IMG/VR virus record: IMGVR_UViG_3300022562_001635
Span: 1-29,763 of that record
From: a virus
Direction: 5' to 3' (one strand)
Length of the DNA stretch: 29,763 nt
In this document: in pieces, positions 1-29,763 of the stretch
Layout of the letters: each line of letters starts with the position of its first letter
Position numbering within the stretch: position 1 is the first letter of the stretch
The notes under the pieces: generated by a model
The model's database searches: none
The model's input: the letters and a program-made list of their open reading frames with translations, nothing else
What the model was told of the DNA's origin: nothing
Position numbers and translations under genes: made by a program

Positions 1-24
1 CAAAAGATAAAAGAGGTAACAAAA

Positions 25-189
25 ATGAAAAAATTAGTAATCTACAAAAGCCACAAAATAGTTTCTGGAAACTGGGTAATCCAGTATGCAGTTAAGGACA
101 CAGAGCAAAACACAATAACAACTGCAAGAAAAATTGTTGTCCCCGTTATCGGTGGGGCAATGACTTCTCTTAAAAGTTATCTTGCATAA
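25..189 (+). CDS. 54-aa conserved small protein, copy 1
   Basis: A 54-residue basic protein starting MKKLVIYKSHKI, with a central TTARKIVVP segment and a GGAMTSLKSYLA end. AGAGGT at 12-17 sits 7 bases before the ATG, and a strong promoter lies immediately upstream, so it should be the first early gene. I do not recognise the family; there is no signal peptide, membrane segment or cysteine. It is duplicated at 27492-27656 on the minus strand with one amino-acid change (Val to Ile near residue 40) and two base changes in total, which shows that it is a real gene and that the copies are recent or kept alike by conversion. The stop codon runs directly into a hammerhead ribozyme, so cleavage would cut the mRNA 24 bases after the stop. 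Confidence 0.8.
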   Translation: MKKLVIYKSHKIVSGNWVIQYAVKDTEQNTITTARKIVVPVIGGAMTSLKSYLA

Positions 190-252
190 TCGAAACGCCA
201 TTAATTTGGCGTCTGGCAGAATTGGCCTACTGCCACTGATGAGATAGGCTAG
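189..252 (+). ncRNA. Type II hammerhead ribozyme, copy 1
   Basis: All core elements are present in the type II order. The short open stem II strand AUC (189-191) is followed by GAAA (192-195). Stem III pairs 195-199 with 208-212 over an 8-nt loop. The cleavage triplet GUC is at 211-213, so the cut falls between 213 and 214. Stem I pairs 214-219 with 230-235 over a 10-nt loop, followed by CUGAUGA (236-242) and the second stem II strand GAU (243-245). Stem I loop bases GGCCUA (224-229) can pair with UAGGCU (245-250), a loop pseudoknot of the kind described for bacterial and phage type II hammerheads. A second copy at 27432-27492 has different arms with pairing preserved. The likely role is processing of the early mRNA right after the first gene. 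Confidence 0.9.
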
Positions 253-282
253 AAAAAATGAATAAAAAAAAGAGGTAAAACT

Positions 283-435
283 ATGAATAGAGAAGAATGG
301 ATAAAAAAAGCGATTGAGGAAGGCGCTTGTGATGAATTTATCGAGTTTATTGCAAATAATCCCGACGCTGAATTTGAAGATCTATCAGAAGATTGGAAAC
401 TTTATTTCTTTATTCAGTCAAAAATAAAGAAATAA
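283..435 (+). CDS. 50-aa acidic small protein, unknown function
   Basis: The ATG at 283 follows an AGAGGT ribosome binding site at 270-275. The protein has 50 residues, is rich in Glu and Asp and starts MNREEWIKKAIEEG. Its pattern (EEWIKKAI..FIEFIANNP....DWKLYFFI) suggests two or three short helices. I do not recognise a family. It is the first gene after the hammerhead cleavage site, so on a cleaved transcript it would be near the new 5' end. A six-codon frame at 258-278 overlaps its leader and is probably fortuitous. Confidence 0.6.
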   Translation: MNREEWIKKAIEEGACDEFIEFIANNPDAEFEDLSEDWKLYFFIQSKIKK

Positions 436-530
436 TTGAAAGAATAAAAAAAGAAAAACTGTTCATTCCATTGCAAAGTGTTCTCCATGAAAGACAAAAA
501 ATATTGTTTTAAAAAAAAGAGGTGAAATCA

Positions 531-695
531 ATGAACAAAGAAAAAAAAGGGAAAAGAGGGCGCCCGAAAGGGGCAAAAAAAAAGGCGATCAACATCGTCT
601 TTGATATGAATGAAATTTCGAAAATAGAAAAAATAGCCATAGAAAAGGAATGGTCCATGGCAAAAGCTGCAAAATATTATTTATCAAAGAGGTAA
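531..695 (+). CDS. Small AT-hook plus ribbon-helix-helix-like DNA-binding protein
   Basis: 54 residues with a good AGAGGTG site about 8 bases upstream of the ATG. The first 20 residues are strongly basic and include GRPKG, the core of an AT-hook that binds the minor groove of AT-rich DNA. The rest fits one ribbon-helix-helix unit: a beta strand (INIVFDM), a helix (NEISKIEKIAIEKE) and a second helix (SMAKAAKYYLSKR), similar in shape to CopG/Arc-type repressors that act as dimers. It lies about 450 bp before a region with paired AGTAAA half-sites around a promoter, so it is a candidate regulator of the early region. Both the fold and the role are inferred from pattern. Confidence 0.6.
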   Translation: MNKEKKGKRGRPKGAKKKAINIVFDMNEISKIEKIAIEKEWSMAKAAKYYLSKR

Positions 696-698
696 AAA

Positions 699-1028
699 AT
701 GTTAACAAAATGTGTAATAGAAAGTATCTCAGTTGCATCAGGAATTGTTCATTTCTGTGCAAACATAACAAAAAAGGAGGGTTTTGTTGAAGAAAAAATA
801 AAGTGCTACTCCAATACAGTCGGCCCATTAAAACTTTATCAGATCGGAGGAGGTAAATTTATTGTCAACTTAGGAGAAAAGAAAATTGTCGACATTATGT
901 TTACAGATATAGACTACAACATTATCCATCTTTCTATTACAGATAAAATAATTATTTTTTTGAAGTTAAGAAAGAAAATAATTGAAGAAGTTTGTTCCGG
1001 AGCATATACAGAGTATTTTTTTAGTTAG
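699..1028 (+). CDS. 109-aa protein of unknown function
   Basis: The gene starts 3 bp after the previous stop, and the AGAGGT that encodes the end of that gene serves as its ribosome binding site. The 109-residue protein looks like a mixed beta-rich fold (ESISVASGIVHFCANI; KFIVNLGEKKIVDIMFTDI) with a basic, hydrophobic C-terminal third (KIIIFLKLRKKIIEEV). There is no recognisable motif, signal peptide or convincing membrane segment. It closes the first small-gene cluster; right after its stop comes a very stable RNA hairpin (1036-1085) and then the gene-free regulatory region. Confidence 0.6.
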   Translation: MLTKCVIESISVASGIVHFCANITKKEGFVEEKIKCYSNTVGPLKLYQIGGGKFIVNLGEKKIVDIMFTDIDYNIIHLSITDKIIIFLKLRKKIIEEVCSGAYTEYFFS

Positions 1029-1035
1029 GATGTTG

Positions 1036-1085
1036 TTTGTTCGCTTGCAACCCCCGGACTTAACCGGGGGTATTAAGTGAACAAA
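1036..1085 (+). other. Stable two-part RNA hairpin after the first gene cluster
   Basis: The outer stem pairs 1036-1046 with 1075-1085 (11 bp, one G-U). The inner stem CCCCCGG/CCGGGGG pairs 1051-1057 with 1064-1070 over the loop ACUUAA. There is no U-tract on either strand, so it is not a standard intrinsic terminator. The loop ACUUAA is also complementary to UUAAGU at 1073-1078, which forms part of the outer stem, so two mutually exclusive folds are possible. It may stabilise the mRNA 3' end, bind a protein or act as a switch. From here to 1525 no gene is seen. Confidence 0.7.
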
Positions 1086-1141
1086 GATAAAATAAATATA
1101 AACGCAATTTTCCATAATGCAACAAAAATTTAAATTTTGTC

Positions 1142-1209
1142 AGTAAAATAAATTTACTTATTTTTTTGTTGACTTTTTATTAGCGTATGTTTACTTTTAA
1201 AAAAGTAAA
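1142..1209. promoter_or_regulatory. Paired AGTAAA operator-like palindromes
   Basis: Four AGTAAA/TTTACT half-sites form two inverted pairs: 1142-1147 with 1153-1158, and 1190-1195 with 1204-1209. The second palindrome (20 bp, 1190-1209) covers the -10 region of the promoter at 1169-1197, and the first lies just upstream of its -35. Two spaced dyads bracketing a promoter look like cooperative repressor sites. The cognate protein is unknown; the small AT-hook/RHH-like protein at 531-695 is a candidate. Confidence 0.55.
1169..1197 (+). promoter_or_regulatory. Promoter for a small structured RNA
   Basis: TTGACT at 1169-1174, a 17-bp spacer and TACTTT at 1192-1197. The -10 lies inside a perfect 20-bp palindrome, so activity is probably controlled by a repressor. 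The next signal downstream is an intrinsic terminator at 1274-1297 with no convincing gene between them, so the product would be an RNA of about 95 nt. Confidence 0.6.
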
Positions 1210-1297
1210 GGGTAAGAGAGCAGCCGGAATCATGCACCCTTATGAATAACAGTGATTGGCCGGCATTTATTTTAAAGACGAGGAGGTCTTTTTTTTT
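1204..1297 (+). ncRNA. Candidate small pseudoknotted RNA
   Basis: This is the predicted transcript between the promoter at 1169-1197 and the terminator at 1274-1297. GCCGGAAUCA (1223-1232) pairs with UGAUU and CCGGC (1253-1257, 1260-1264) with a two-base GG bulge. AAGGGU (1208-1213) can pair with ACCCUU (1236-1241) in the loop of that hairpin, forming an H-type pseudoknot. I do not recognise a known RNA family. Its place just ahead of the replication genes suggests an antisense, decoy or regulatory role. The ends are inferred. Confidence 0.55.
1274..1297 (+). terminator. Intrinsic terminator of the small RNA
   Basis: A 6-bp stem AAAGAC/GTCTTT with loop GAGGAG, running into nine T residues (1289-1297). 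It is a modest stem with a strong U-tract. Confidence 0.75.
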
Positions 1298-1322
1298 GAG
1301 TTTGTAAATAATGAAGTCCCTG

Positions 1323-1376
1323 CCACAGAGGGTTATCTGTGGAATAAAAAAGAAGGTGAAACGCCTTCTTTTTTTT
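1323..1376 (+). terminator. Hairpin followed by a second intrinsic terminator
   Basis: CCACAGA/TCTGTGG (1323-1342) forms a 7-bp hairpin. It is followed by AAGAAGG/CCTTCTT (1350-1370) with a 7-base loop and a T-run to 1376. No clear promoter lies between it and the previous terminator, so it probably catches read-through from upstream or acts as an attenuator pair. Confidence 0.7.
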
Positions 1377-1393
1377 AAAAATATAAAAAATGC

Positions 1394-1423
1394 TTGACTG
1401 TGCTTTTTTATTATGTCTTATAT
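1394..1423 (+). promoter_or_regulatory. Promoter for the replication genes
   Basis: TTGACT at 1394-1399, 18 bp, then TTATAT at 1418-1423. Transcription would start near 1430 and read through the 1456-1500 hairpin into the initiator gene at 1526. It lies directly after the terminator at 1323-1376, which suits a fresh transcription unit. Confidence 0.55.
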
Positions 1424-1455
1424 ATAGCATTACTACATTACCTCTTTTGATATAG

Positions 1456-1500
1456 ACCCCGGCCCCTACCTGTTACCCTAACAATCGGCCGGGGTTTTTT
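1456..1500 (+). terminator. GC-rich terminator/attenuator before the initiator gene
   Basis: ACCCCGGCC (1456-1464) pairs with GGCCGGGGT (1487-1495) over a 22-base C-rich loop, with Ts from 1495 to 1500. It sits between the promoter at 1394-1423 and the ribosome binding site at 1511-1516, so transcripts must pass it to express the replication genes. This suggests attenuation or antitermination control. Confidence 0.8.
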
Positions 1501-1525
1501 CGTTTTTAGAAAGGAGAATTAAAAA

Positions 1526-2188
1526 ATGATAAATGGAATAAACCATACTCAAATTTCAAATGACTTCATCGACAAATATATGCGACGCGTGTCTGGTGCA
1601 GCTACACAAGTGTTTCTTGTAATATCAAGGAAAACAATAGGGTGGCACAAAGAAACTGACAATATTTCTTTTTCTCAAATATGTGAAATGACAGGACTTT
1701 CTAAGAATACCGCGATTAAGGCAGTTAAAGAACTTGAAGATTTGAACCTTGTTATTGTAGAAAGATCTACATCTAATGGGATTAAAAATATAAACACATA
1801 TTCAATAAACTATTCTTCTGTAGTGCAAAATTTGACAGATGGTAGTGCAGAAAATGAACAAGGGGTAGTGCAAAATTTGACAGATGGTAGTGCAGAAAAT
1901 GAACATACAAAAGAAACTCTTACAAAAGAAAAATATAAAGAAATGGAAACACGTCGTTTTAAAGCTCCTAAATATGAAGAGGTGGTAAAATATTGCAAAG
2001 AAAAAAATTTAACAATTGACAGCAAGTTTTTCTTTGACTATTACAACGATAACGACTGGTTTGACAGAGACGGAAAAAAAATAAAAAATTGGAAAGGCAA
2101 AGCTCTAACATGGAGCAATCGAAATCTTACAAGGACAGGGCCTACTACCACTTTTAAGAGGCCAGAAATAAATTACCCAAAGTTATGA
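1526..2188 (+). CDS. Replication initiator, lambda O-like (Phage_rep_O N-terminal domain)
   Basis: 220 residues, starting 9 bases after AAGGAG. Residues 1-90 match the winged-helix N-terminal domain of phage O-type initiators, with a recognition-helix region around FSQICEMTGLSKNTAIKAVKELEDL. The C-terminal part (KYEEVVKYCKEKN..WKGKALTWSNR) resembles the helicase-loading ends of phage replisome organizers. Between them lies an exact 15-residue tandem duplication (VVQNLTDGSAENE, twice) encoded by the iteron DNA at 1820-1909. By analogy with lambda, the protein would bind those iterons, open the adjacent AT-rich DNA and load the helicase encoded at 2805. No phage polymerase or primase was found, so the rest of replication probably uses host proteins. 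Confidence 0.8.
   Translation: MINGINHTQISNDFIDKYMRRVSGAATQVFLVISRKTIGWHKETDNISFSQICEMTGLSKNTAIKAVKELEDLNLVIVERSTSNGIKNINTYSINYSSVVQNLTDGSAENEQGVVQNLTDGSAENEHTKETLTKEKYKEMETRRFKAPKYEEVVKYCKEKNLTIDSKFFFDYYNDNDWFDRDGKKIKNWKGKALTWSNRNLTRTGPTTTFKRPEINYPKL
1820..1909 (+). other. Putative replication origin: four iterons inside the initiator gene
   Basis: GTAGTGCA occurs at 1820, 1842, 1865 and 1887, spaced 22, 23 and 22 bp (about two helical turns), each followed by RAAWWTGA. At a higher level it is a 45-bp tandem duplication, identical over 41 bases, which keeps the reading frame. A run of A-rich DNA follows (1905-1950). Iterons inside the O gene next to AT-rich DNA are the hallmark of the lambda origin; the function here is inferred from that analogy. 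Confidence 0.75.
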
Positions 2189-2203
2189 GGATAGAAATAG
2201 AAC

Positions 2204-2818
2204 ATGATTAAAGTTAAACTTGTTTCTCATACTCCGTTGCCGGAAGAAGTAATAGCAGAAGCGATAAGGGCTTGTTATAATTCTTCTGCAAAAGCAGAGA
2301 ATTTAATCGAAAATTGCATTGCAAATGGACACGAGTCTGTTCTTGAACATGCTATAGCGACATTTGAAATTACAGGAGTGTCAAGGGCGCTAACTCATCA
2401 GCTTGTGCGACATAGGATAGCGTCATACACGCAAGAGTCGCAGCGTTATGTAAAGCAGAGTGAATTTAAATATATTGTCCCGCCATCTGTTTTGGTTAAA
2501 AATGGGTTTTATGAAAAATATGTAAACTTAATGGCAGACATCGAAAAGCTATATTGTAAAATGATTTCTGCCGGTATAAAAAAAGAAGACGCAAGATACA
2601 TATTGCCCAATGCGGCTACAACAAGAATATTTGTAACGATGAATTTTAGATCTTTAAGGCACTTTATAAAATTGAGAATCCACAAGTCTGCACAATGGGA
2701 GATTAGAAGCCTAGCCAAAGAAATGCTAAAAATACTTGCCTTTATTGCTCCTACATGTTTTTTAGATTTTATGAAGGAAAATATTTATTTCATGGCTGGA
2801 AAAAATGAAAACAATTGA
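2204..2818 (+). CDS. thyX: Flavin-dependent thymidylate synthase ThyX
   Basis: 204 residues with the ThyX signature RHRxxSxxxxSxR at residues 69-81 (RHRIASYTQESQR). Flanking family features include HESVLEHA near 43-50 and YILPNAATT later on. The enzyme makes dTMP from dUMP with methylene-tetrahydrofolate as carbon donor and FAD/NADPH as reductant, supplying thymine for phage DNA synthesis. It lies between the initiator and helicase genes, and its 3' end overlaps the helicase gene by 14 bp, implying translational coupling. The length is typical to slightly short for the family. Confidence 0.95.
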   Translation: MIKVKLVSHTPLPEEVIAEAIRACYNSSAKAENLIENCIANGHESVLEHAIATFEITGVSRALTHQLVRHRIASYTQESQRYVKQSEFKYIVPPSVLVKNGFYEKYVNLMADIEKLYCKMISAGIKKEDARYILPNAATTRIFVTMNFRSLRHFIKLRIHKSAQWEIRSLAKEMLKILAFIAPTCFLDFMKENIYFMAGKNENN

Positions 2819-4043
2819 TCTCGTTTTAGCGAAGGCTATTTTGAACAAGGAAATTGCGGAAAGACTTGTTGAAGATTTTGATATTACTTATTTTGGATGC
2901 AACAACAGCGCTGTGTTATTTTTGTGCATTTCTTTTTTGCTAAAAAACGAAATTGAAATATCTCTGTCTTCTGTAATGGAATATAATAATGCGAAGGACA
3001 GAGATGGTTTTCAAAATTATTTGTTGCTTCTTATGCGAGAAACACCATTTGTCAATTATGAGTATTGCAGAGAATCTTTATATCGCGAACATAGTAGGGA
3101 GCTTATTGCAGCGCATGCAAAAGACATCATTAAGTTGTGTGCCTCAGGTGGAGATGTCGGAGAAATTATTGATAAGATACAAGAAGCACATGAATCAATT
3201 ATTTCTTCTAAAGCAGATGATTATATGACCGTTGCTGATTATGCAAAAGAAGGATGCGAAAATCTTTTTCGAGACAATGTTTTTGTAAAGACTGGGATCG
3301 CTCGGCTTGATGCAGCTATAAAAGGATTTGGCGCTGGGCAGCTTGTTATTATTGCTGCACGCCCTGCAATGGGCAAATCTACTCTTGGCTTGCAGATTGC
3401 ATGCAATCTTGAAGACAAGGCTCTTTTTTATTGCCTTGAAATGACAGGCAAAGAAAATTTTGCTCGTCTTGTTGCAAGCAGGACTGGGCTCACAGTGTCT
3501 GACATAATTGTTGGAAGGGGAGACAAAGACAAGATTAAGCAAGGAGAAAATTCTTTAAAGACAAACGGGCTTGGACTTGTCGACAATAAAAGATACCTTA
3601 ACCAAATTGTTTCACACGCAAAAAAAGAAGCAAAAAAAAGAGAAATAAAAGCTGTTTTTGTAGACTATTTGCAAATTGTAAAGGTGAATAGCAGAAAGCA
3701 GAGATATGAAGTTGTTGGAGAAATTTCTAGAGGATTGAAGGATCTTGCCATGGATTTGAAATGCCCGGTAATTGCTTTCTCTCAGCTTAACAGAGCGCTT
3801 GAGACAGAAAATAGAAAACCATGTCTTGCAGATCTTCGTGAGAGTGGAGACATAGAGCAAGATGCAGACATTATTATTTTTATCCATAGCGAAGACAGCA
3901 AAGAAAAAGCTGTAATGGATGTTGAATTGATTCTCGCTAAAGGACGAAACTTTGGGATAGGATCTTGCCAGATGAAGTACGACAAGCCGCGTTTTGTGTT
4001 TAGAGACGAAACAGCAGCGGACTATGAAATGAAAGGTTGGTAA
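2805..4043 (+). CDS. Replicative DNA helicase, DnaB-like
   Basis: 412 residues. A short, divergent N-terminal domain (about 1-135) precedes a RecA-like motor. Walker A is ARPAMGKST at 185-193, Walker B is VFVDYLQI around 284-291, and the DnaB-type motif SQLNRALE is near 326-333, followed by LADLRESGDIEQDADIIIFI. The ILAKGRNFGIG segment corresponds to the conserved C-terminal arginine-bearing motif. It should form the hexameric 5'-3' fork helicase loaded by the O-like initiator. It is somewhat shorter than bacterial DnaB (about 450-470 residues), mainly in the N-terminal domain. The gene starts inside thyX. Confidence 0.92.
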   Translation: MKTIDLVLAKAILNKEIAERLVEDFDITYFGCNNSAVLFLCISFLLKNEIEISLSSVMEYNNAKDRDGFQNYLLLLMRETPFVNYEYCRESLYREHSRELIAAHAKDIIKLCASGGDVGEIIDKIQEAHESIISSKADDYMTVADYAKEGCENLFRDNVFVKTGIARLDAAIKGFGAGQLVIIAARPAMGKSTLGLQIACNLEDKALFYCLEMTGKENFARLVASRTGLTVSDIIVGRGDKDKIKQGENSLKTNGLGLVDNKRYLNQIVSHAKKEAKKREIKAVFVDYLQIVKVNSRKQRYEVVGEISRGLKDLAMDLKCPVIAFSQLNRALETENRKPCLADLRESGDIEQDADIIIFIHSEDSKEKAVMDVELILAKGRNFGIGSCQMKYDKPRFVFRDETAADYEMKGW

Positions 4044-4047
4044 CAAA

Positions 4048-4539
4048 ATGATAACATGCTATACGAACGGGAAAAAAATCAAACTTGACAAAGAGCATGA
4101 AGAATTTTTTAGAAACAAAAGGATTATTTTGACGAACAACATTCTTTGTTTTAAAAATGATAAAGGGAAAAAGCAGTCTTTAAAAAATTATATTCTTGGA
4201 TTTGAGAAAACGAAAAAAAACGAATATGTGTATCACCTCGATGAAGACACATATAATTTAGAGAAAAAAAATCTGAAAATTGGTCTTTTTGGAACACATT
4301 CGAAAGGTGGATACAGAACAAAGAAAGCAGAAAAAATAAACAAGTATGCAGAGAAAGAAACTACTACATCAAAAATAAAAATTTATTGCAACGATGAAAT
4401 TGTAAAAATACAAAGATATAAAAAAGCAATTTCAAATGAGGATGGATTCATCATTACGAACGACATTTATTTTTCAGAAAAAGAAGCAAAATTTATTTAC
4501 TCAGAATTAAAAAAAAGGTATGATAAAAAATGCAGTTAG
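4048..4539 (+). CDS. 163-aa protein with a degenerate HNH-like segment
   Basis: A Lys-rich protein (163 residues) starting 4 bp after the helicase stop. Residues 44-78 (SLKNYILGFEK...VYHLDEDTYNLEKKNLKIG) match the spacing of phage HNH homing-type proteins, which usually carry V.HIDGD..NNR.ENL; here H63, N70 and N75 occupy the key places. The first half has no obvious domain and the C-terminal half (KIKIYCNDEIVKIQRYKKAI) looks beta-rich. It may be a worn homing endonuclease or an HNH-fold DNA-binding protein. There is no zinc-binding cysteine pair. The family assignment is tentative; the gene itself is well supported by context. Confidence 0.55.
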   Translation: MITCYTNGKKIKLDKEHEEFFRNKRIILTNNILCFKNDKGKKQSLKNYILGFEKTKKNEYVYHLDEDTYNLEKKNLKIGLFGTHSKGGYRTKKAEKINKYAEKETTTSKIKIYCNDEIVKIQRYKKAISNEDGFIITNDIYFSEKEAKFIYSELKKRYDKKCS

Positions 4540-5012
4540 TTAGAGTTCAAAATGGTTTTCTTCCGGCAAATCCTCAGGCCGAGGAAGAAATGAAAAATTT
4601 TCCAGTCGGTGAGCTTGTAGAAATGCAGCTCAAAATAACAGAAAATTATCGAAGTTTGCAGCAGCTTAATTTGTACTGGTGGGCCTGTCATCTTGTAGCC
4701 ATGAATACAGAAAATAGAAACTGGGACAGCAAAGAAAAGGTGAGTGAGCAAATTAAAATAGCGTGTCAATTTATTGATCACTGGATTCTCTATGAGAATC
4801 CAAAAACGAAAGAAAAATGGTTGAACATAAAGACAAAAAGCATTTCCTTTAGTTCTTTGTCTCATGCTGAAGCGTGTAAATTTTTTGATAAAGCATTTGA
4901 TTTGATGGCTGAAATAATGGGGCTTGATGTTGATACTTTTATCGAAAAAGTAAAAGCTCAAATTGTGCTTAAAAACATTGTAGAAGCATTTAATGGAGAT
5001 GTAATTAAATAA
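4530..5012 (+). CDS. DUF1367-like phage protein
   Basis: 160 residues beginning MQLVRVQNGFLPANPQAEEE, with ENYRSLQQLNLYWWACHLVA around residues 38-57 and a helical C-terminus (ACKFFDKAFDLMAEIMGLDVDTFIEKV). The arrangement resembles the DUF1367 family, found in phage nin-type and recombination regions and sometimes placed near NinB functions. No catalytic motif is visible. It overlaps the upstream gene by 10 bp and the next small gene by 1 bp (TAATG), so it belongs to a tightly coupled operon. The assignment rests on general resemblance only. Confidence 0.55.
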   Translation: MQLVRVQNGFLPANPQAEEEMKNFPVGELVEMQLKITENYRSLQQLNLYWWACHLVAMNTENRNWDSKEKVSEQIKIACQFIDHWILYENPKTKEKWLNIKTKSISFSSLSHAEACKFFDKAFDLMAEIMGLDVDTFIEKVKAQIVLKNIVEAFNGDVIK

Positions 5013-5128
5013 TGGTTTATAAGGTTGTAATAAGGCACAAAGAGTCAGGGAGGCAGCTATATAAAAAAATGTATGAAACATATGAAAAATACGCACATGA
5101 CAAATATTTTATAAGAATTGAGCAGTAA
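5012..5128 (+). CDS. 38-aa small protein, unknown function
   Basis: The start codon overlaps the previous stop (TAATG). The product is 38 residues, begins MVYKVVIRHKESG and is rich in Tyr and Lys with little hydrophobic content. There is no recognisable motif. Translational coupling and filling of an otherwise empty 120-bp gap between genes support it as a real gene. Confidence 0.45.
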   Translation: MVYKVVIRHKESGRQLYKKMYETYEKYAHDKYFIRIEQ

Positions 5129-5134
5129 TAAAAA

Positions 5135-5557
5135 ATGAAAAAAATAATAGAATTATTTGCAAAACTTAAAAATAAAGCTATTGTTGAAATGATCCAAAGA
5201 GAAAAAAATAAAGCGATAAAAGAAACAGAACAGCGTCTTTATGCCGCACACGAACAAGAAAAACAGCGAATGAATCGACGGCATATGTTTAAGCTATCTT
5301 TGTTAGAAGCAGACAACGACTCCTTAAAAAGAGAAATTATTAGGCTTAAAAAAGACATGGAATCATTTCAAAGATTTGATGATGAATTGAAAAGAAAGCA
5401 AGAGACGTTTTTATTAATTTCAGAAAAATTGAATTCTTTGTGTGACAGCAACGTACATACAATTTTGAGATATTATCAAGATACAAAAAATGTAATTAAG
5501 CAGATCGAAGAGGTTGGCAGTAATGACAAAAAAAGAAATTACAAATATTTTAAATAA
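5135..5557 (+). CDS. Coiled-coil protein, unknown function
   Basis: 140 residues, dominated from about 15 to 100 by charged heptad-like helix (EKNKAIKETEQRLYAAHEQEKQ; NDSLKREIIRLKKDMESFQ). There is no signal peptide or membrane segment, so it is probably a soluble coiled coil. It may be an accessory to the nuclease genes that follow, since its 3' end overlaps the VRR-NUC gene by 35 bp and supplies that gene's ribosome binding site. The function is not recognisable. Confidence 0.6.
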   Translation: MKKIIELFAKLKNKAIVEMIQREKNKAIKETEQRLYAAHEQEKQRMNRRHMFKLSLLEADNDSLKREIIRLKKDMESFQRFDDELKRKQETFLLISEKLNSLCDSNVHTILRYYQDTKNVIKQIEEVGSNDKKRNYKYFK

Positions 5558-5825
5558 TCTTCATGGTTGGATTTGTAAAACATTTAACAGCCACAAAAAA
5601 ATGCCTAAAGGAGCAATCGGTTTTGTTGATTATGTCTTAATAAATCCAATAAAGAAAAAAATATGTTTTATCGAAATGAAAGGAAAAGGTGATGGCCTAA
5701 GTGAAAAGCAAAGCTCTTTTAAAAATGCTTGTGAAAGAATAGCAAGTGAAAGCATAGAGTTTTATTATTTTTTATTGACAGAAGAAAATTATCAAGAAAT
5801 AATAAAGGAAATTACCTCTTTGTGA
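5523..5825 (+). CDS. VRR-NUC domain nuclease
   Basis: 100 residues. The ATG at 5523 is preferred because GAGG at 5510-5513 lies 9 bases upstream; a TTG at 5514 would have no spacing. The protein is essentially one PD-(D/E)XK domain of the VRR-NUC type: GFVDYVLINP with D36, FIEMKGKGDGLSEKQ with E51 and K53, and the LSEKQ helix at 59-63. Stand-alone VRR-NUC proteins are common in phages and are thought to cleave branched DNA in a Holliday-junction-resolvase-like way. It fits the recombination and packaging needs of a phage with a Rad52/exonuclease system. Confidence 0.85.
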   Translation: MTKKEITNILNNLHGWICKTFNSHKKMPKGAIGFVDYVLINPIKKKICFIEMKGKGDGLSEKQSSFKNACERIASESIEFYYFLLTEENYQEIIKEITSL

Positions 5826-6169
5826 AAAAGGTTGAAGTAGATGAAAAAAGAATTGAAATTTATCAAAGAGATGATTACAAATGTCAATTCCAAGGATGCA
5901 ACAAAAGAGGGGCAGAAAATCTTGAATTGGCGCATCGCATCAATAAGGGTAAAACGGCGCATAAGTATGTCCAGAATTATATTCAAGACAAGTATAAAGT
6001 TCGCTTATCAACAGCATGTGTTTCCCGGTTTTTTGTTAATCACTCCCTTAATCTTGTTAGCTCATGCCGTGCGCATAATGATTACTTCAATATATTTTTT
6101 AATCCTGAAGCTACGAATCAACTTATTGACAAGATATATGAAATTGAAAAAAGCAATTTTGTTATGTAA
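5822..6169 (+). CDS. HNH endonuclease
   Basis: 115 residues with a GTG start that overlaps the previous TGA stop. It has a zinc-binding HNH pattern: C21 and C26, LELAHRI with H38, HSLNLVSSCRAH with N77, C82 and H85. Such proteins nick or cut DNA; in phages they act as homing enzymes, packaging-associated nucleases or defence-evasion factors. It is not next to the terminase here but follows another nuclease gene, suggesting a DNA-processing cluster. A Lys-rich frame at 5841-6185 in another phase is only a shadow. Confidence 0.8.
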   Translation: MKKVEVDEKRIEIYQRDDYKCQFQGCNKRGAENLELAHRINKGKTAHKYVQNYIQDKYKVRLSTACVSRFFVNHSLNLVSSCRAHNDYFNIFFNPEATNQLIDKIYEIEKSNFVM

Positions 6170-6186
6170 AATCATGAAAGGATGAG

Positions 6187-6381
6187 ATAAAAAGGATTAA
6201 ATTTTATACAAATAGTGTTGGCTTTGAATGTGATAATTGCTGTTATACGCAAACGTTAGAAAGTCCAGAGGATTTTCAAGTAGCATTTAATGAACTTACT
6301 TGCCCTGTTATATGGCGTGTTGACGGAGAAAAGTTATATTGTTCGTATTCATGTTCATGTATAAACGAAGCCAATAAATGA
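6187..6381 (+). CDS. Cys-rich small protein with a probable ATA start
   Basis: An open frame of 64 codons encodes a small protein with KRIKFYTNSVGFECDNCCYT near its start and CPVIWRV...LYCSYSCSC later. Seven cysteines in CxxC-like pairs suggest a zinc-binding fold. The frame is closed upstream by a TGA at 6175, and no ATG, GTG or TTG lies in its N-terminal part. The best start is ATA at 6187, 5 bases after AAAGG. A lost start codon (pseudogene) or a sequence error is also possible. The preserved cysteines argue for a functional product, and the frame fills the gap between the HNH gene and the NrdD-like mini-gene. Confidence 0.55.
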   Translation: MKRIKFYTNSVGFECDNCCYTQTLESPEDFQVAFNELTCPVIWRVDGEKLYCSYSCSCINEANK

Positions 6382-6413
6382 CAAATTTATTTAATAAAGG
6401 AGCTTGATCAAGT

Positions 6414-6566
6414 TTGAAAGAAATTCCATGTGAAATATTTACAAGAGTAGCCGGATATTTCCGGCCAATAGACAATTTTAATAAAGGCAAAAGAGAAGAA
6501 TATGAAGAGCGAAAAGGATGCAAAGAAAAAGCTATAGAGGCAATAAAAAATGGAAAAAATAATTGA
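6414..6566 (+). CDS. NrdD C-terminus-like mini-protein
   Basis: 50 residues from a TTG start, 11 bases after AAGGAG; no other start is available because a TGA closes the frame at 6405. The segment IFTRVAGYFRPIDNFNKGKR closely matches the motif (RV.GY.RP..NWN.GK.EE) that ends class III anaerobic ribonucleotide reductases (NrdD), just after their zinc ribbon. The glycyl-radical segment and catalytic barrel are absent, so it cannot be a reductase itself. It could regulate, mimic or complement the host enzyme. Similar short NrdD-tail proteins occur in other phages as I recall; their function is unknown to me. Confidence 0.7.
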   Translation: MKEIPCEIFTRVAGYFRPIDNFNKGKREEYEERKGCKEKAIEAIKNGKNN

Positions 6567-6624
6567 GTGCATTTGTGTGTCTTTTATTTCTGTGATGTTT
6601 GTAATATATTTTTTTAAGAAATAA
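6550..6624 (+). CDS. 24-aa single-pass membrane peptide
   Basis: The ATG at 6550 follows GAGG at 6537-6540 with 9-base spacing and overlaps the end of the NrdD-like gene. The peptide is MEKII, then CICVSFISVMFVIYFF, then KK: one hydrophobic helix with a short charged N-terminus and a Lys-Lys tail. It is too short to classify; it may be a membrane regulator or a tiny holin-like peptide. The good ribosome binding site is the main support. Confidence 0.4.
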   Translation: MEKIIECICVSFISVMFVIYFFKK

Positions 6625-6690
6625 TTTGCAATATATATGTGGGTTAATTTTTCCGCCACGTATAAATTTATAAAAAAAAGAGGTTTAAAA

Positions 6691-6975
6691 ATGGAAAACA
6701 CGTTTGTAATGGTAACGACGGAAAAAAAAGGGGTGTTTGCTGGAACGCTTCTCAACTATGATGCGGAAAAAAAAGTCGCGCATCTTAAAAATGTAAGAAT
6801 GTGCGTAATGTGGACATCGTCGAGAAAAGGTGTGCTAGGGCTTGCAGCTAATGGCCCGGACAACAAAGATCGTATAACTCCGGCAGCTTCAGAGGCTATC
6901 CTTGAGGGAGTAACTGCAATTTTTTCTTGCGCTGAAAAAGCTAGAAAAAAATGGGAGGCAGAGCCATGGGGATAG
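6691..6975 (+). CDS. DUF6948-like protein
   Basis: 94 residues starting at MENTF. AGAGGT at 6679-6684 selects this ATG rather than an upstream in-frame ATG. The pattern VMVTTEKKGVFAGTLLNYDAE..VAHLKNVRM, then a WTS...LGLAANGP stretch and a late AIFSCAEKARKKWE, resembles the small DUF6948 family common in phage early regions, in which a beta-barrel-like start is followed by a Trp-containing loop. The biochemical role is unknown. It overlaps the start of the Gly/Tyr/Ser protein gene. Confidence 0.55.
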   Translation: MENTFVMVTTEKKGVFAGTLLNYDAEKKVAHLKNVRMCVMWTSSRKGVLGLAANGPDNKDRITPAASEAILEGVTAIFSCAEKARKKWEAEPWG

Positions 6976-7535
6976 AAAGGAGCGACTACTTTGGCTCTTC
7001 CTCTGGTTTTGGCTATGGAGATGGTTATGGACATAGCCATGGATCTGGATATGGCTTTGGCTTTGGCAATGGATTTACACTTTGTTCTGGATCTGGAAAT
7101 GGTTACGGCTCTGGAGATGGTTACGGCTCTGGAAATGATTACGGCTCTGGAAATGGATATGGCTCTGGATATGGATATGGCTCTGGCTATGGCTATGGCT
7201 ATGGCTCTGGAAATGGCGATGGGTCTGGATTTGGAGAAGGAGGAATGTTTTTTTTTAAAAAAGAGGCCTTTGAATGTTATCACTATATAAAAAAAAATGG
7301 GGAAAAATACGTCTTAAGAGCTGGAAGAGAAATTGATCGCGATGAAATTCTTTTTGAAGGGAAAATAGAACTTTGTTCCCACGGGCTGCATGCATCTTTG
7401 TTAAAAGAGCAAGCATCTCTTTACGCTCCTAAAGAGTCAGTTTTGACAAAAGTAAAAGTGTGGGGGGACGTTGTTTTTGGGTCGGATAAACTTGTTGCTC
7501 AATATAGGGAAATAATTTGCGAGGTAGAGTTATGA
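6966..7535 (+). CDS. Gly/Tyr/Ser-repeat protein with a DUF7666-like C-terminal domain
   Basis: 189 residues. The ATG at 6966 is chosen because GGAGG lies 7 bases upstream. Residues 10-92 are low-complexity repeats built from GYGSG, GNGYGSG and GDGYGSG units, with aromatic residues regularly spaced, as in prion-like or self-associating segments. Residues 95-189 form a compact domain with KYVLRAGREI, KIELCSHGLHAS and a closing KVKVWGDVVFGSDKLVAQ, resembling the DUF7666 domain seen in many phages, often behind repeats. The underlying DNA is an 18-bp-type tandem repeat (about 6984-7240) prone to length change. The function is unknown; assembly or sequestration is speculation. Confidence 0.7.
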   Translation: MGIERSDYFGSSSGFGYGDGYGHSHGSGYGFGFGNGFTLCSGSGNGYGSGDGYGSGNDYGSGNGYGSGYGYGSGYGYGYGSGNGDGSGFGEGGMFFFKKEAFECYHYIKKNGEKYVLRAGREIDRDEILFEGKIELCSHGLHASLLKEQASLYAPKESVLTKVKVWGDVVFGSDKLVAQYREIICEVEL

Positions 7536-8329
7536 GGTGTTCAATTTGCGGAGAGAAAATAATGAAAGAGCACAAAGAAGCATTTATTTATGAGAAATGT
7601 AGTTTTTGCAGTTATGAAGGAAAGAGGAGCCTTGAGCCAATGGAAGAAAATGTAATAAAAAAATATACAAAAAGAGCGTGGGAAGAATATGAAAACCGCG
7701 AAGCTTTCCAGATTAGATATCGAGACTCTTTAACCGGAGCGGAAATGAAAGGCCGATTTAAAATCGGAGAAAACCTTTTAATTGAAGACACTTTTGTATT
7801 TGAGCATACAAACGAACCGCGCGACTGGGTTACGAATTTTTTTGCTTGCACTAAAAAAGTTCGGTTAATGGGAAAAGAAATTTATTTTCATCGCGGATAT
7901 TACCTAGCAGCAAAGCGTTTGCTTGATAGGTTTTCGCATGGGAATACTGCAAAAATGTTTTTGTCCGGGTATAGCATGGGAGCTGGTGTTGCTTCTATTT
8001 TTGCAATTTTGTACGCAGCAGAAAATCCCGGATGTGAGGTTGTATGCGTTGCCATGGAGGGTGCAAATTATTTTTCTGGAAAAGTGGAAATTGAAAATCT
8101 TGATATAATCAATGTCGAAAACGGAAACGATACAGTAACTAAGGTTCCATGGTGGCTTGGAAAATATGGAGAAGTTATTAATATTGGAGAAAAAAGAAGG
8201 TGGTGTAAGACAGGGATAAAACTTAGATACGACAAGATAGAAAAAGGACTTTATAAGTTTTTTGATGTTCCAGAGCATCATTTTGGGGAATACAAAAAAA
8301 GTCTTGATGTTTTTTTAGGAGGCGCATGA
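7532..8329 (+). CDS. Zinc-ribbon plus lipase-like alpha/beta hydrolase
   Basis: 265 residues; the ATG at 7532 overlaps the previous stop and has GAGGT 6 bases upstream. An N-terminal zinc ribbon uses C3, C6, C23 and C26. The remainder resembles class 3 lipases: HRGYYLAAK, then the nucleophile elbow GYSMG (S148), then a plausible acid D200 in NVENGNDTVTKVP and a histidine at 249-250 (EHHFGEY). The family hydrolyses ester bonds in lipids, and the DTVTKVP spacing is typical. With no endolysin found in this genome, a role in membrane or envelope breakdown at lysis is possible but unproven; modification of host lipids is the alternative. There is no signal peptide. Confidence 0.75.
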   Translation: MRCSICGEKIMKEHKEAFIYEKCSFCSYEGKRSLEPMEENVIKKYTKRAWEEYENREAFQIRYRDSLTGAEMKGRFKIGENLLIEDTFVFEHTNEPRDWVTNFFACTKKVRLMGKEIYFHRGYYLAAKRLLDRFSHGNTAKMFLSGYSMGAGVASIFAILYAAENPGCEVVCVAMEGANYFSGKVEIENLDIINVENGNDTVTKVPWWLGKYGEVINIGEKRRWCKTGIKLRYDKIEKGLYKFFDVPEHHFGEYKKSLDVFLGGA

Positions 8330-27194: not shown

Positions 27195-27197
27195 AAT

Positions 27198-27242
27198 TAT
27201 AGCACCAGTGTCAAGTATTAGCTTCCGAACACTGGTGCTATA
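27198..27242. terminator. Perfect hairpin between convergent gene blocks
   Basis: TATAGCACCAGTGT (27198-27211) and ACACTGGTGCTATA (27229-27242) form a perfect 14-bp stem over a 17-base loop. It lies 4 bp after the last late gene and 19 bp from the end of the minus-strand block, where a bidirectional terminator is expected. The flanking T-tracts are short and offset on both strands, so termination may be inefficient, or the site may bind a protein. Confidence 0.65.
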
Positions 27243-27261
27243 GTGAACTTTTTAAATCGCG

Positions 27262-27411
27262 TCAATTCCAACATTTAAATTCATAAAATATGCATCCATT
27301 GTGATCTTCTGTTTTTAAGCCAGCATTAGCAGCTATGATCCATGCCTTGCTGGCGCACTCTTCTCCGTCGTCCCACTTGCAAGAGTCACAATCATGGGTG
27401 ATTTTTTCCAT
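27262..27411 (-). CDS. 49-aa Cys-rich mini-protein
   Basis: The ATG at 27411 (minus strand) is preceded by a full GGAGGT site with 6-base spacing. The product has 49 residues with CDSCKWDDGEEC at residues 8-19 and further cysteines in GC..YEFKC, a likely metal-binding fold with acidic loops and several Trp. I do not recognise a family. It is the last gene of the minus-strand block and lies downstream of the second hammerhead ribozyme, so cleavage would give its message a new 5' end about 58 bases before the start codon. Confidence 0.7.
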   Translation of the reverse strand: MEKITHDCDSCKWDDGEECASKAWIIAANAGLKTEDHNGCIFYEFKCWN

Positions 27412-27431
27412 GTTTATACCTCCATTTTTTT

Positions 27432-27492
27432 TAGCCTATCTCATCAGTGCCGGTAGGCTATCCCCGGCAGACGCTCCGAAGAGCGTTTCGAT
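27432..27492 (-). ncRNA. Type II hammerhead ribozyme, copy 2
   Basis: Minus-strand positions are given. AUC at 27492-27490, then GAAA at 27489-27486. Stem III ACGCUC/GAGCGU (27486-27481 with 27476-27471) is closed by a UUCG tetraloop. C17 is 27470, so the cut is between 27470 and 27469. Stem I UGCCGG/CCGGCA (27469-27464 with 27453-27448) is followed by CUGAUGA (27447-27441) and GAU (27440-27438). Loop AGCCUA (27459-27454) pairs fully with UAGGCU (27438-27433). Compared with copy 1, stems I and III and the pseudoknot have changed on both sides with pairing kept, while the core is identical. Confidence 0.92.
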
Positions 27493-27656
27493 TATGCAAG
27501 ATAACTTTTAAGAGAAGTCATTGCCCCGCCGATAATGGGGACAACAATTTTTCTTGCAGTTGTTATTGTGTTTTGCTCTGTGTCCTTAACTGCATACTGG
27601 ATTACCCAGTTTCCAGAAACTATTTTGTGGCTTTTGTAGATTACTAATTTTTTCAT
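27492..27656 (-). CDS. 54-aa conserved small protein, copy 2
   Basis: Minus-strand duplicate of the gene at 25-189: 54 residues with one Val to Ile change and 163 of 165 bases identical. The start at 27656 uses the same AGAGGT site; a longer in-frame reading from upstream would begin in the A/T-rich leader and is not supported. It has no promoter of its own, because the -35/-10 segment is missing, so it probably depends on read-through from rad52-exonuclease-ssb. The ribozyme follows its stop immediately, as in copy 1. The function is unknown. Confidence 0.8.
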   Translation of the reverse strand: MKKLVIYKSHKIVSGNWVIQYAVKDTEQNTITTARKIVVPIIGGAMTSLKSYLA

Positions 27657-27726
27657 TTTTGTTACCTCTTTTATCTTTTGACAAAAAAAACAGAAAAAGA
27701 CAGAAAAAACAGTTATTTTTGTTTTT

Positions 27727-28143
27727 TTATGGAATTTCTTCGTCCGAAAAAGCGTTTTGAATTTCTTGAGAAATGTATTTTTCATCATTTTTTTTTGCGT
27801 CCGGAACATCTCTTTGCCAGTTTTCTTCTTTTAAACTGTCCTTTTTTTCGATAAAAGAAAAACTTTGAACGATAAAGTCAATGCTGTACATTTTTTTTCC
27901 TTCGCTTTCCCATGAATTTTGACGTGCCTTTGATTGCACAAGAAGCCTCTGCCCTTTTGTTACATATGTTGCTATTGCTTCTCCTGTCTTTCCAAAAGCT
28001 ACAAAATTAAAAAAACTTGTGTGCTCTTCTCCGTTATATTTTTCTCCGAACGCGCCTGAAAATTTACATATTTTTGTGTCGTTGTTAGTCATGACTAACT
28101 CAGGGTCTTTTGTGAGCCTGATTAAAAATGAGCAGTTATTCAT
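27727..28143 (-). CDS. ssb: Single-stranded DNA-binding protein
   Basis: 138 residues, GGAG upstream. The OB fold is evident: MNNCSFLIRLTKDPELVMTN at the start, TSFFNFVAFGKTGEAIATYV in the middle, and KGQRLLVQSKARQNSWES next, followed by an acidic tail ending FSDEEIP. This resembles the SSB protein-interaction tip but lacks the usual final Phe. It coats single strands during replication and recombination and often works with annealing proteins, which lie directly upstream here. The coding end abuts the repeat unit. Confidence 0.92.
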   Translation of the reverse strand: MNNCSFLIRLTKDPELVMTNNDTKICKFSGAFGEKYNGEEHTSFFNFVAFGKTGEAIATYVTKGQRLLVQSKARQNSWESEGKKMYSIDFIVQSFSFIEKKDSLKEENWQRDVPDAKKNDEKYISQEIQNAFSDEEIP

Positions 28144-28164
28144 ATTTTCTCCTTTGCGGGGTAA

Positions 28165-28872
28165 TTATCCCCAGATATTTTTTACTCGTGGATTATTTTT
28201 TAGCCTTCTTTTTTTCTCGGCGTAAAAAAAATCAACAAGGCTATAGAAAGCAAACATGGCATTTTCTATGTTTTTTGAAAAATCTTTAAATTCATATTCT
28301 CCTGTTTCTTTGTCAAGGCGCAACACCGCAACCTTTGCAATCTCATTTATCATTTCCAATAAAGCGCCCGTGTATCCGGCAAGCTGTAATTTAAATGAGT
28401 CATATATTGCTTTTCCTGTTTTGATGTCGAGGATATATAATTGTCCTCCAAGTCTACATAAAATATCGCATGTTCCAGCATACAAATATTTTTCATGCAC
28501 AAGAAACTTTTCCGATTCTACAAGCTCAAAATTAACTGTTTTTTCCCAATCATAAAACGCGTTAAACGCAGCGCTTTTTTCTTTTGGAAGCTCTCCATGC
28601 CGCAAGTACAATTCAATTTCTTTGTGTATGCTTGTCCCGGTTTTTGCTGCATCTTCTTTTTTTATTTTGTGGGCTTCTTTCGCTTCAGAAAGCAAATTGT
28701 CAAAATCATGTGCTCCAGAACCACAGTTGCTTATATTGTCGCGGATATGCTCTATCGCCATATTTACAGCCCATGGAATTAACGGTCCGGACTTATCAAG
28801 CTGCCCGACAATTTGCGATACAGACGGAACATCTACTACAAGGCCATTGCTTAGAGTTATTCCTTTATACAT
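28165..28872 (-). CDS. PD-(D/E)XK exonuclease, RecB/Cas4-like family
   Basis: 235 residues with GGAG 7 bases before the ATG. The nuclease motifs are in order: GTSIHKEIE (helix with His), YAGTCDILCRLGG (metal-binding Asp), YILDIKTGK (D-x-K core) and QLAGYTGALLE (QxxxY-type motif). Members digest DNA ends to expose single strands. The gene overlaps the Rad52-like annealing gene by 8 bp, so the pair is the two-component recombinase, comparable in role to lambda Exo-Beta. There is no iron-sulfur cysteine cluster. Confidence 0.88.
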   Translation of the reverse strand: MYKGITLSNGLVVDVPSVSQIVGQLDKSGPLIPWAVNMAIEHIRDNISNCGSGAHDFDNLLSEAKEAHKIKKEDAAKTGTSIHKEIELYLRHGELPKEKSAAFNAFYDWEKTVNFELVESEKFLVHEKYLYAGTCDILCRLGGQLYILDIKTGKAIYDSFKLQLAGYTGALLEMINEIAKVAVLRLDKETGEYEFKDFSKNIENAMFAFYSLVDFFYAEKKRRLKNNPRVKNIWG

Positions 28873-29539
28873 GGAGCCGCTCCTTTATCGCGTTCCTTAT
28901 CGCGCAAACCTCTTGCGGAGTATACATGTATTTTACAAGACGAAAACTGTCTGCATACTCTTTTACATCGTCTTTATTTTTTTTCTGTACTTTTTGCAAA
29001 ATAGAATCTAAAGTAAGATATGCAGATGGAAGTGCCCACCATGGAATTTGTGGAGGATCCCATTTAAAGGATGGATGTTTGTCTTTTTTTGGACAGACGT
29101 AAAAAGCCCCTCTCCCGTCTTGCACGTCATATACCGTCGCATATGACTCATTAAGGCTGTAAAGATATCTACCAATGCCCCACTGTACAGCAGCTCGTTT
29201 CATTGCTCCAGACAACCCACCCTTAATAGCCTCAAATTGTGTGTTTTCTGCCCCGTCCTCTTTTGTTAGCCATCGCGAAAATATTGCGTTTTTTTCTGAA
29301 TCAAATTCACGAATAAAAAGTGAAAGCGCGCAGATAACGCCACCTTCTGGTCCTGCCTTAAATTCATTTTTCCAGTTTTCTGGCCCTACAACGTCGTCAA
29401 GTCGGTCTTGAATTGCTCTATTGTCCACGTATGCAAGACATTTTGCCCACAACGATCCATCTTTTTTTATACCAACCTGAGAAATTCTCCATTCAAGATC
29501 GCACTCTGGAAAAGGTTTTTTTAATTCTATCAAATTCAT
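28865..29539 (-). CDS. Rad52/Rad22-like single-strand annealing protein
   Basis: 224 residues; AGAGGTG lies just upstream of the ATG. The Rad52 signature is clear: LEWRISQVGIKKDGSLWAKC and YVDNRAIQDRLDDVVGPENW, then the basic helix region GGLSGAMKRAAVQWGIGRYLY. It anneals complementary single strands after exonuclease processing. It is the first gene of the minus-strand block and lies divergently from the early plus-strand operon, with about 130 bp between its start and the early promoter. No clear promoter of its own was found there: a TTGACC is present but badly spaced from any -10. Confidence 0.9.
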   Translation of the reverse strand: MNLIELKKPFPECDLEWRISQVGIKKDGSLWAKCLAYVDNRAIQDRLDDVVGPENWKNEFKAGPEGGVICALSLFIREFDSEKNAIFSRWLTKEDGAENTQFEAIKGGLSGAMKRAAVQWGIGRYLYSLNESYATVYDVQDGRGAFYVCPKKDKHPSFKWDPPQIPWWALPSAYLTLDSILQKVQKKNKDDVKEYADSFRLVKYMYTPQEVCAIRNAIKERLHV

Positions 29540-29666
29540 ATCTCACCTCTTTGTAAATATTAATACACTGTGCATTGCGTAAGGAAAAGGTCAAGGATTT
29601 AATAAAGAAAAATAAAGAAAAAAAAACAAAAATAACTGTTTTTTCTGTCTTTTTCTGTTTTTTTTG

Positions 29667-29695
29667 TTGACAAAATATAATACTGGATGTATATT
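29667..29695 (+). promoter_or_regulatory. Consensus sigma70-type promoter for the early genes
   Basis: TTGACA at 29667-29672, a 17-bp spacer and TATATT at 29690-29695. It lies about 35 bp upstream of the start codon at base 25 after circularisation and is the only strong candidate reading into the early plus-strand block. An imperfect dyad (TATAATAC, then GTATATTATA) covers the spacer and -10 and could be an operator. The segment carrying this promoter is absent from the other repeat copy. Confidence 0.75.
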
Positions 29696-29703
29696 ATATA
29701 TAT

Positions 29704-29763
29704 CAAAAGATAAAAGAGGTAACAAAAATGAAAAAATTAGTAATCTACAAAAGCCACAAAATA
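29704..29763. repeat. Terminal overlap identical to bases 1-60
   Basis: The last 60 bases equal the first 60 exactly, starting in the 5' leader of the 54-aa gene and ending inside its coding sequence. The break falls within a gene, so this is most simply the overlap left when a circular or circularly permuted genome is assembled as a linear contig. Joining the ends gives a 29,703-bp molecule. A real short terminal repeat cutting through a gene is less likely, and the SPP1/P22-type terminase, portal and coat genes fit headful packaging of permuted DNA. Confidence 0.9.

Follow-up and report, generated by a model that had tools for sequence, protein, structure and literature searches.

Opposite-strand type II hammerhead ribozymes behind an inverted gene duplicate probably process mRNA in a phage genome

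The window analyzed here, which takes in the whole of a 29,763-base IMG/VR record, contains two copies of a 54-aa gene on opposite strands, each of which runs directly into a type II hammerhead ribozyme (HHR1 and HHR2; Table 1). Collectively, the sequence comparisons make it probable that these are two ordinary and likely active hammerheads that process phage mRNA, and that the cassette to which they belong was duplicated, with its gene parts subsequently homogenized by recombination.

Table 1. Coordinates of the ribozymes, their structural elements, and the surrounding features in the window
Feature	Position	Strand	Basis or remark
HHR1, type II hammerhead copy 1	188..253	+	RF02276, 37.7 bits; motif scan; predicted cut between 213 and 214
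HHR1 stem II	189-191/243-245	+
HHR1 stem III	195-200/207-212	+
HHR1 stem I	214-219/230-235	+
HHR1 GUC; CUGAUGA; GAAA	211-213; 236-242; 192-195	+
HHR1 loop I/tail	224-229/245-250	+	pseudoknot
HHR2, type II hammerhead copy 2	27430..27493	-	RF02276, 47.4 bits; motif scan; predicted cut between 27470 and 27469
HHR2 stem II	27492-27490/27440-27438	-
HHR2 stem III	27486-27481/27476-27471	-
HHR2 stem I	27469-27464/27453-27448	-
HHR2 cleavage site; CUGAUGA; GAAA	27472-27470; 27447-27441; 27489-27486	-
HHR2 loop I/tail	27459-27454/27438-27433	-	pseudoknot
54-aa gene copy 1	25..189	+	ORF, sequence; stop TAA 187-189 runs into HHR1
54-aa gene copy 2	27492..27656	-	2/165 bases unlike copy 1
50-aa ORF downstream of HHR1	283..435	+	AGAGG ribosome-binding sequence
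49-aa ORF downstream of HHR2	27262..27411	-	GGAGG ribosome-binding sequence
Operon enclosed by inverted cassettes	27727..29539	-	PHROGs and Pfam
Rad52/Erf-like annealing protein	28865-29539	-	PHROGs and Pfam
Exonuclease	28165-28872	-	PHROGs and Pfam
SSB	27727-28143	-	PHROGs and Pfam
Terminal direct repeat	29704..29763	+	identical to window 1-60
AT-rich leader, 48 nt	29620..29667	+	exact reverse complement of 27681-27728; inner end of inverted duplicate
48-nt leader of 54-aa gene copy 2	27681..27728	-	overlaps SSB stop codon
Promoter-like TTGACA-17-TATATT (11/12) in 37-nt stretch	29667..29703	+

Both sites score above the 37-bit gathering score of the Rfam family Hammerhead_II (RF02276), HHR2 with an E value of 6.1e-07 against all of Rfam and HHR1 with an E value of 5.2e-08 in a one-family, one-genome search. 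The covariance model thus bears out the type II identity that the first-pass annotation had assigned to both sites, and the predicted cleavage positions coincide with those it had proposed. A cmscan of the window with E values up to 10 reported only 27430-27493, finding no further ribozymes and missing HHR1 itself, while a motif scan of the window returned HHR1 and HHR2 and nothing else. The conserved CUGANGA and GAAA core with a UH cleavage site, here GUC, is present in both copies, as are loop-closed stems I and III and an open stem II, with 6, 6, and 3 pairs, respectively. Loop I of each copy also forms six pairs with the tail, a pseudoknot found in most of the class; in HHR1, stem II and the pseudoknot share base 245, so that at most one of these two pairs forms. 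The predicted minimum-energy nested fold of HHR1 opens stem I in favor of the loop I–tail helix, which suggests that HHR1 may cleave more slowly. It is highly improbable that these motifs arose by chance or are relics without activity: although HHR1 lies just over the Rfam cut-off (37.7 versus 37), every core base is intact in both copies, their pairs are compensated, and 60 first-order shuffles of the window produced four weak matches and none that was comparable.

These ribozymes add to a kind that is already published. The association of type II hammerheads with small phage genes dates back to 2011 (PMC3088659), when Perreault et al. proposed a role in mRNA processing and showed that related prophage-operon arrays are cleaved both in vitro and in E. 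coli, and the role of prokaryotic hammerheads has been stated as an open question (PMC6155905). The window copies share with the described RF02276 members (PMC3088659) the permuted order with an open stem II, the CUGAUGA and GAAA core, the GUC site, the loop I–tail pseudoknot, the presence of phage genes on either side, and the occurrence of several per genome. They also resemble the clustered prophage hammerheads (PMC3088659; reviewed in PMC6155905) in that small ORFs, which in those clusters are nonconserved, are separated by ribozymes, but the window has just one ribozyme per operon and strand. Hammerheads flanking small phage genes had thus been reported before (PMC3088659, PMC6155905), and it is the opposite-strand pair that is unusual, as the first-pass annotation noted.

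The arrangement was compared with relatives from pattern scans of IMG/VR, the larger of which gave more than 100 stretches each, for a total of more than 230 loci and at least 423 type II hammerhead motifs outside the window; the sample was picked by sequence patterns, and the figures below describe motifs of that kind. Among the matches listed, none of the 37 whole records with at least two matches is mixed-strand, and of the 85 loci with at least two motifs the window is the only mixed-strand one, with its copies placed behind a duplicated gene. The phages closest in terminase or Rad52-like protein were also searched: none of their 48 records, among them Nitratiruptor phage NrS-1 and some short fragments, contained an RF02276-family hammerhead. 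In 374 distinct relatives among the matches listed, loop I forms at least five pairs with its own tail in 53%, compared with 20% when tails were swapped (300 swaps, maximum 25%), which indicates that the pseudoknot is under selection.

The position relative to stop codons is equally regular. Among the matches listed (423 motifs), 72% begin 0–8 nt after the stop of an ORF of at least 50 aa, and the modal distance is 2 nt, as in both HHR1 and HHR2. In the first set of 224 motifs, again among the matches listed, 74% show this spacing, compared with 3.6% of control CGAAA sites elsewhere on that strand and 2.2% of those on the opposite one, and most of this set has a start codon and a ribosome-binding sequence 12–40 nt after stem II. 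HHR1 and HHR2 likewise each separate two genes of the same orientation, adjoining the upstream stop and followed by a start codon with its ribosome-binding sequence. Stop-codon bases are often part of stem II (ribozyme loci L003-L128 and L284-L404), and in HHR1 the final base of the TAA stop, A189, pairs in this stem. Perreault et al. (2011) do not give this stop-codon rule in their main text, and the literature searches turned up no mention of it, though older or closed literature could contain it.

Judged from these features, the most likely function is the cutting of polycistronic phage mRNA right after the stop codon. Each ribozyme would fold while the polymerase moves out of the 54-aa gene, cutting the transcript 24 nt past the stop. 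The upstream mRNA would then end in the stem III hairpin with a 2′,3′-cyclic phosphate, and the downstream mRNA would begin with a 5′-OH and the stem I hairpin, followed by its own ribosome-binding site. Cleavage directly behind the stop would yield separately decaying mRNAs, detaching the small gene from its operon, and the two RNAs could differ in how stable they are and in how well they are translated. Because the ribozyme abuts the stop, stem II and the 5′ strand of stem III would lie under a terminating ribosome, and cleavage could be delayed by translation.

The window begins and ends with the same 60 bases, an exact direct repeat, and the contig therefore closes as a 29,703-bp circle; the record is apparently classed as linear in the search listing. 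Upon closure, the leader-gene-ribozyme cassettes become outward-pointing inverted-repeat arms around the Rad52-like/exonuclease/SSB operon, and the plus-strand gene copy acquires upstream the 48-nt leader and the promoter-like TTGACA-17-TATATT, the latter in a 36-nt stretch (29668-29703) exclusive to this copy and lacking from the minus-strand one. The inverted duplicate comprises 48 + 198 nt with two differences between the arms, both within the 165-bp gene (one V to I, one silent), in agreement with the first-pass count. By sequence comparison, both copies thus derive from an inverted duplication of the leader-gene-ribozyme cassette. The 48-nt exact inverted repeat (27681-27728 and 29620-29667) that lengthens the gene duplicate also flanks the operon, and the segment between its two arms is possibly invertible.

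The contig starts exactly at the repeat and stops 60 nt into it, as assemblers typically do at an unresolved repeat, which raises the question of whether there is only one real gene copy, the end of the contig being mis-joined or taken from a variant strain. The closure falls within the repeat, and the exact repeat measures 144 nt, so that the upstream side (promoter or SSB) belonging to HHR1 and HHR2 may be swapped. However, the copies are distinguished by two gene positions, by their hairpins, and by all of the sequence that follows, and what lies downstream of each is contained in one contig. An assembly artefact is therefore quite improbable.

The proteins encoded around the ribozymes offer few ties to known families. 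The 54-aa protein has no PHROGs match and no significant Pfam match, and no relatives of it were found in IMG/VR or in phages; the 50-aa ORF has no PHROGs match and no Pfam match over the cut-off, and the 49-aa ORF no family match in either. A long inverted repeat (~27195-27245) follows the 49-aa ORF, where the convergent rightward operon meets. A blastn search of window positions 1-8000 against phages gave no match, the nearest named phage terminases, from Nitratiruptor phages, are 45% identical, and a search of collected bacterial and archaeal genomes found no terminase relatives, while in these genomes Rad52-like relatives are scattered across many phyla. Elsewhere in the window, an ORF at 6951-7535 encodes a Gly/Tyr/Ser-rich repeat (SGxGYG units with 18- and 12-nt spacing) and has no PHROGs match, a lipase/esterase-like protein (PHROG 21992) is encoded at 7517-8329 amid early phage genes, and a 41-nt exact direct repeat with 45-nt spacing (1820-1905) lies in a replication-initiator-like gene, where it repeats QNLTDGSAENE.

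Comparison of HHR1 with HHR2 reveals changes on both sides of the pair in 2/6 pairs of stem I and 2/6 of stem III, compared with 0/3 in stem II and 0/6 in the pseudoknot. Stem II and the tail have the same sequence in both copies, and the pseudoknot carries one one-sided change, G-U to A-U. The compensatory changes that the first-pass annotation saw in every arm are therefore present in stems I and III only, and "every arm" was an overstatement. Nonetheless, pairing is maintained as it had described, and four compensated pairs with no stem pair broken lend real support for function.

The annotation had further held that the two ribozymes drifted in place after duplication, constrained by pairing alone, with their structure under selection. 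The pair itself does not lead to this conclusion: 16 of the 37 hairpin columns are different, as against 2 of 246 bases of the flanking duplicate (Fisher p 3e-14), which implies that the gene parts are younger, or more recently homogenized, than the difference between the ribozymes. The preservation of all stem pairs, four of them altered on both sides, would fit drift, and one pair of relatives (L114 and L115), in which stem III is 79% identical and the rest 99–100%, indicates that stem III alone can change. In nearly all other comparisons with an upstream identity of at least 93%, however, stem III identity is at least 0.91, as against 0.60 and 0.64 for the window, and hairpins are usually identical in cross-phage ribozyme pairs with near-identical sequence on both sides. 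In-place drift is thus unlikely and was rejected as the main account, the window pair having the most divergent hairpins between near-identical flanks. Recombination or gene conversion between the inverted arms would be the simplest account and appears to fit better than drift; the phage carries its own Rad52/Erf-like annealing protein. Such inverted-arm recombination would hold the gene parts near-identical, or would have freshly copied them, leaving the hairpins at the outer ends different.

Ribozyme junctions were also examined as synteny breakpoints, by asking, where 150 nt of gene on one side is at least 85% identical in another contig, whether the other side is unrelated. This was so at 42% of ribozyme junctions when the upstream gene was shared and at 61% when the downstream gene was, compared with 24% and 23% of junctions that have no ribozyme within 2.5 kb and with 20% and 19% when only similar gap lengths were considered. 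The permutation p values against matched junctions range from 0.02 to 0.0002, with 19–31 ribozyme junctions per test and contigs that are not independent. As a lead, ribozyme junctions would thus be breakpoints about two to three times as often as matched junctions, and they look like cassette borders. Five contig pairs (L064/L363, L291/L308, L296/L392, L309/L383, and L329/L370) are near-identical on one side of the hammerhead and unrelated on the other.

In several contig pairs, the switch from homologous to unrelated sequence falls inside the ribozyme itself. L080 and L363 become unrelated there (gene 98%, stem I 57%), as do L085 and L334, and L329 and L370 are 50% identical upstream and 59% in stem III but 100% from stem I through the downstream region. 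Together with the breakpoint excess (42–61% versus 19–24%), these cases favor a possible, though doubtful, alternative in which the window hairpins were swapped in by recombination with a different hammerhead, with the breakpoint within the conserved core. Against it, the pseudoknot tail CACTGATGAGATAGGCTA is the same in both copies, so that the replacement must begin and end inside the ribozyme, or the donor had an identical tail; the exact tail occurs in only eight IMG/VR stretches, and no donor was found.

A broader reading that joins these observations is that type II hammerheads form the 3′ borders of exchangeable single-gene phage cassettes, their core serving as short homology for Rad52/Erf-like single-strand annealing, and that the inverted arms could here flip the Rad52-like operon leftward or rightward. 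New genes would then join at the ribozyme and be insulated immediately at the RNA level. We regard this reading as speculative and rather unlikely.

Two points are notable about the preferred reading of mRNA-processing ribozymes in a duplicated, homogenized cassette: the ribozymes differ while their genes are almost identical, and ribozymes of this kind lie right behind stop codons. With almost the same gene carried twice but two unlike ribozymes, the genome provides a compact natural comparison, and the tight coupling to the stop codon yields a testable prediction on translation versus cleavage. Judging by the excess of breakpoints, these ribozymes may also play a part in phage gene shuffling.
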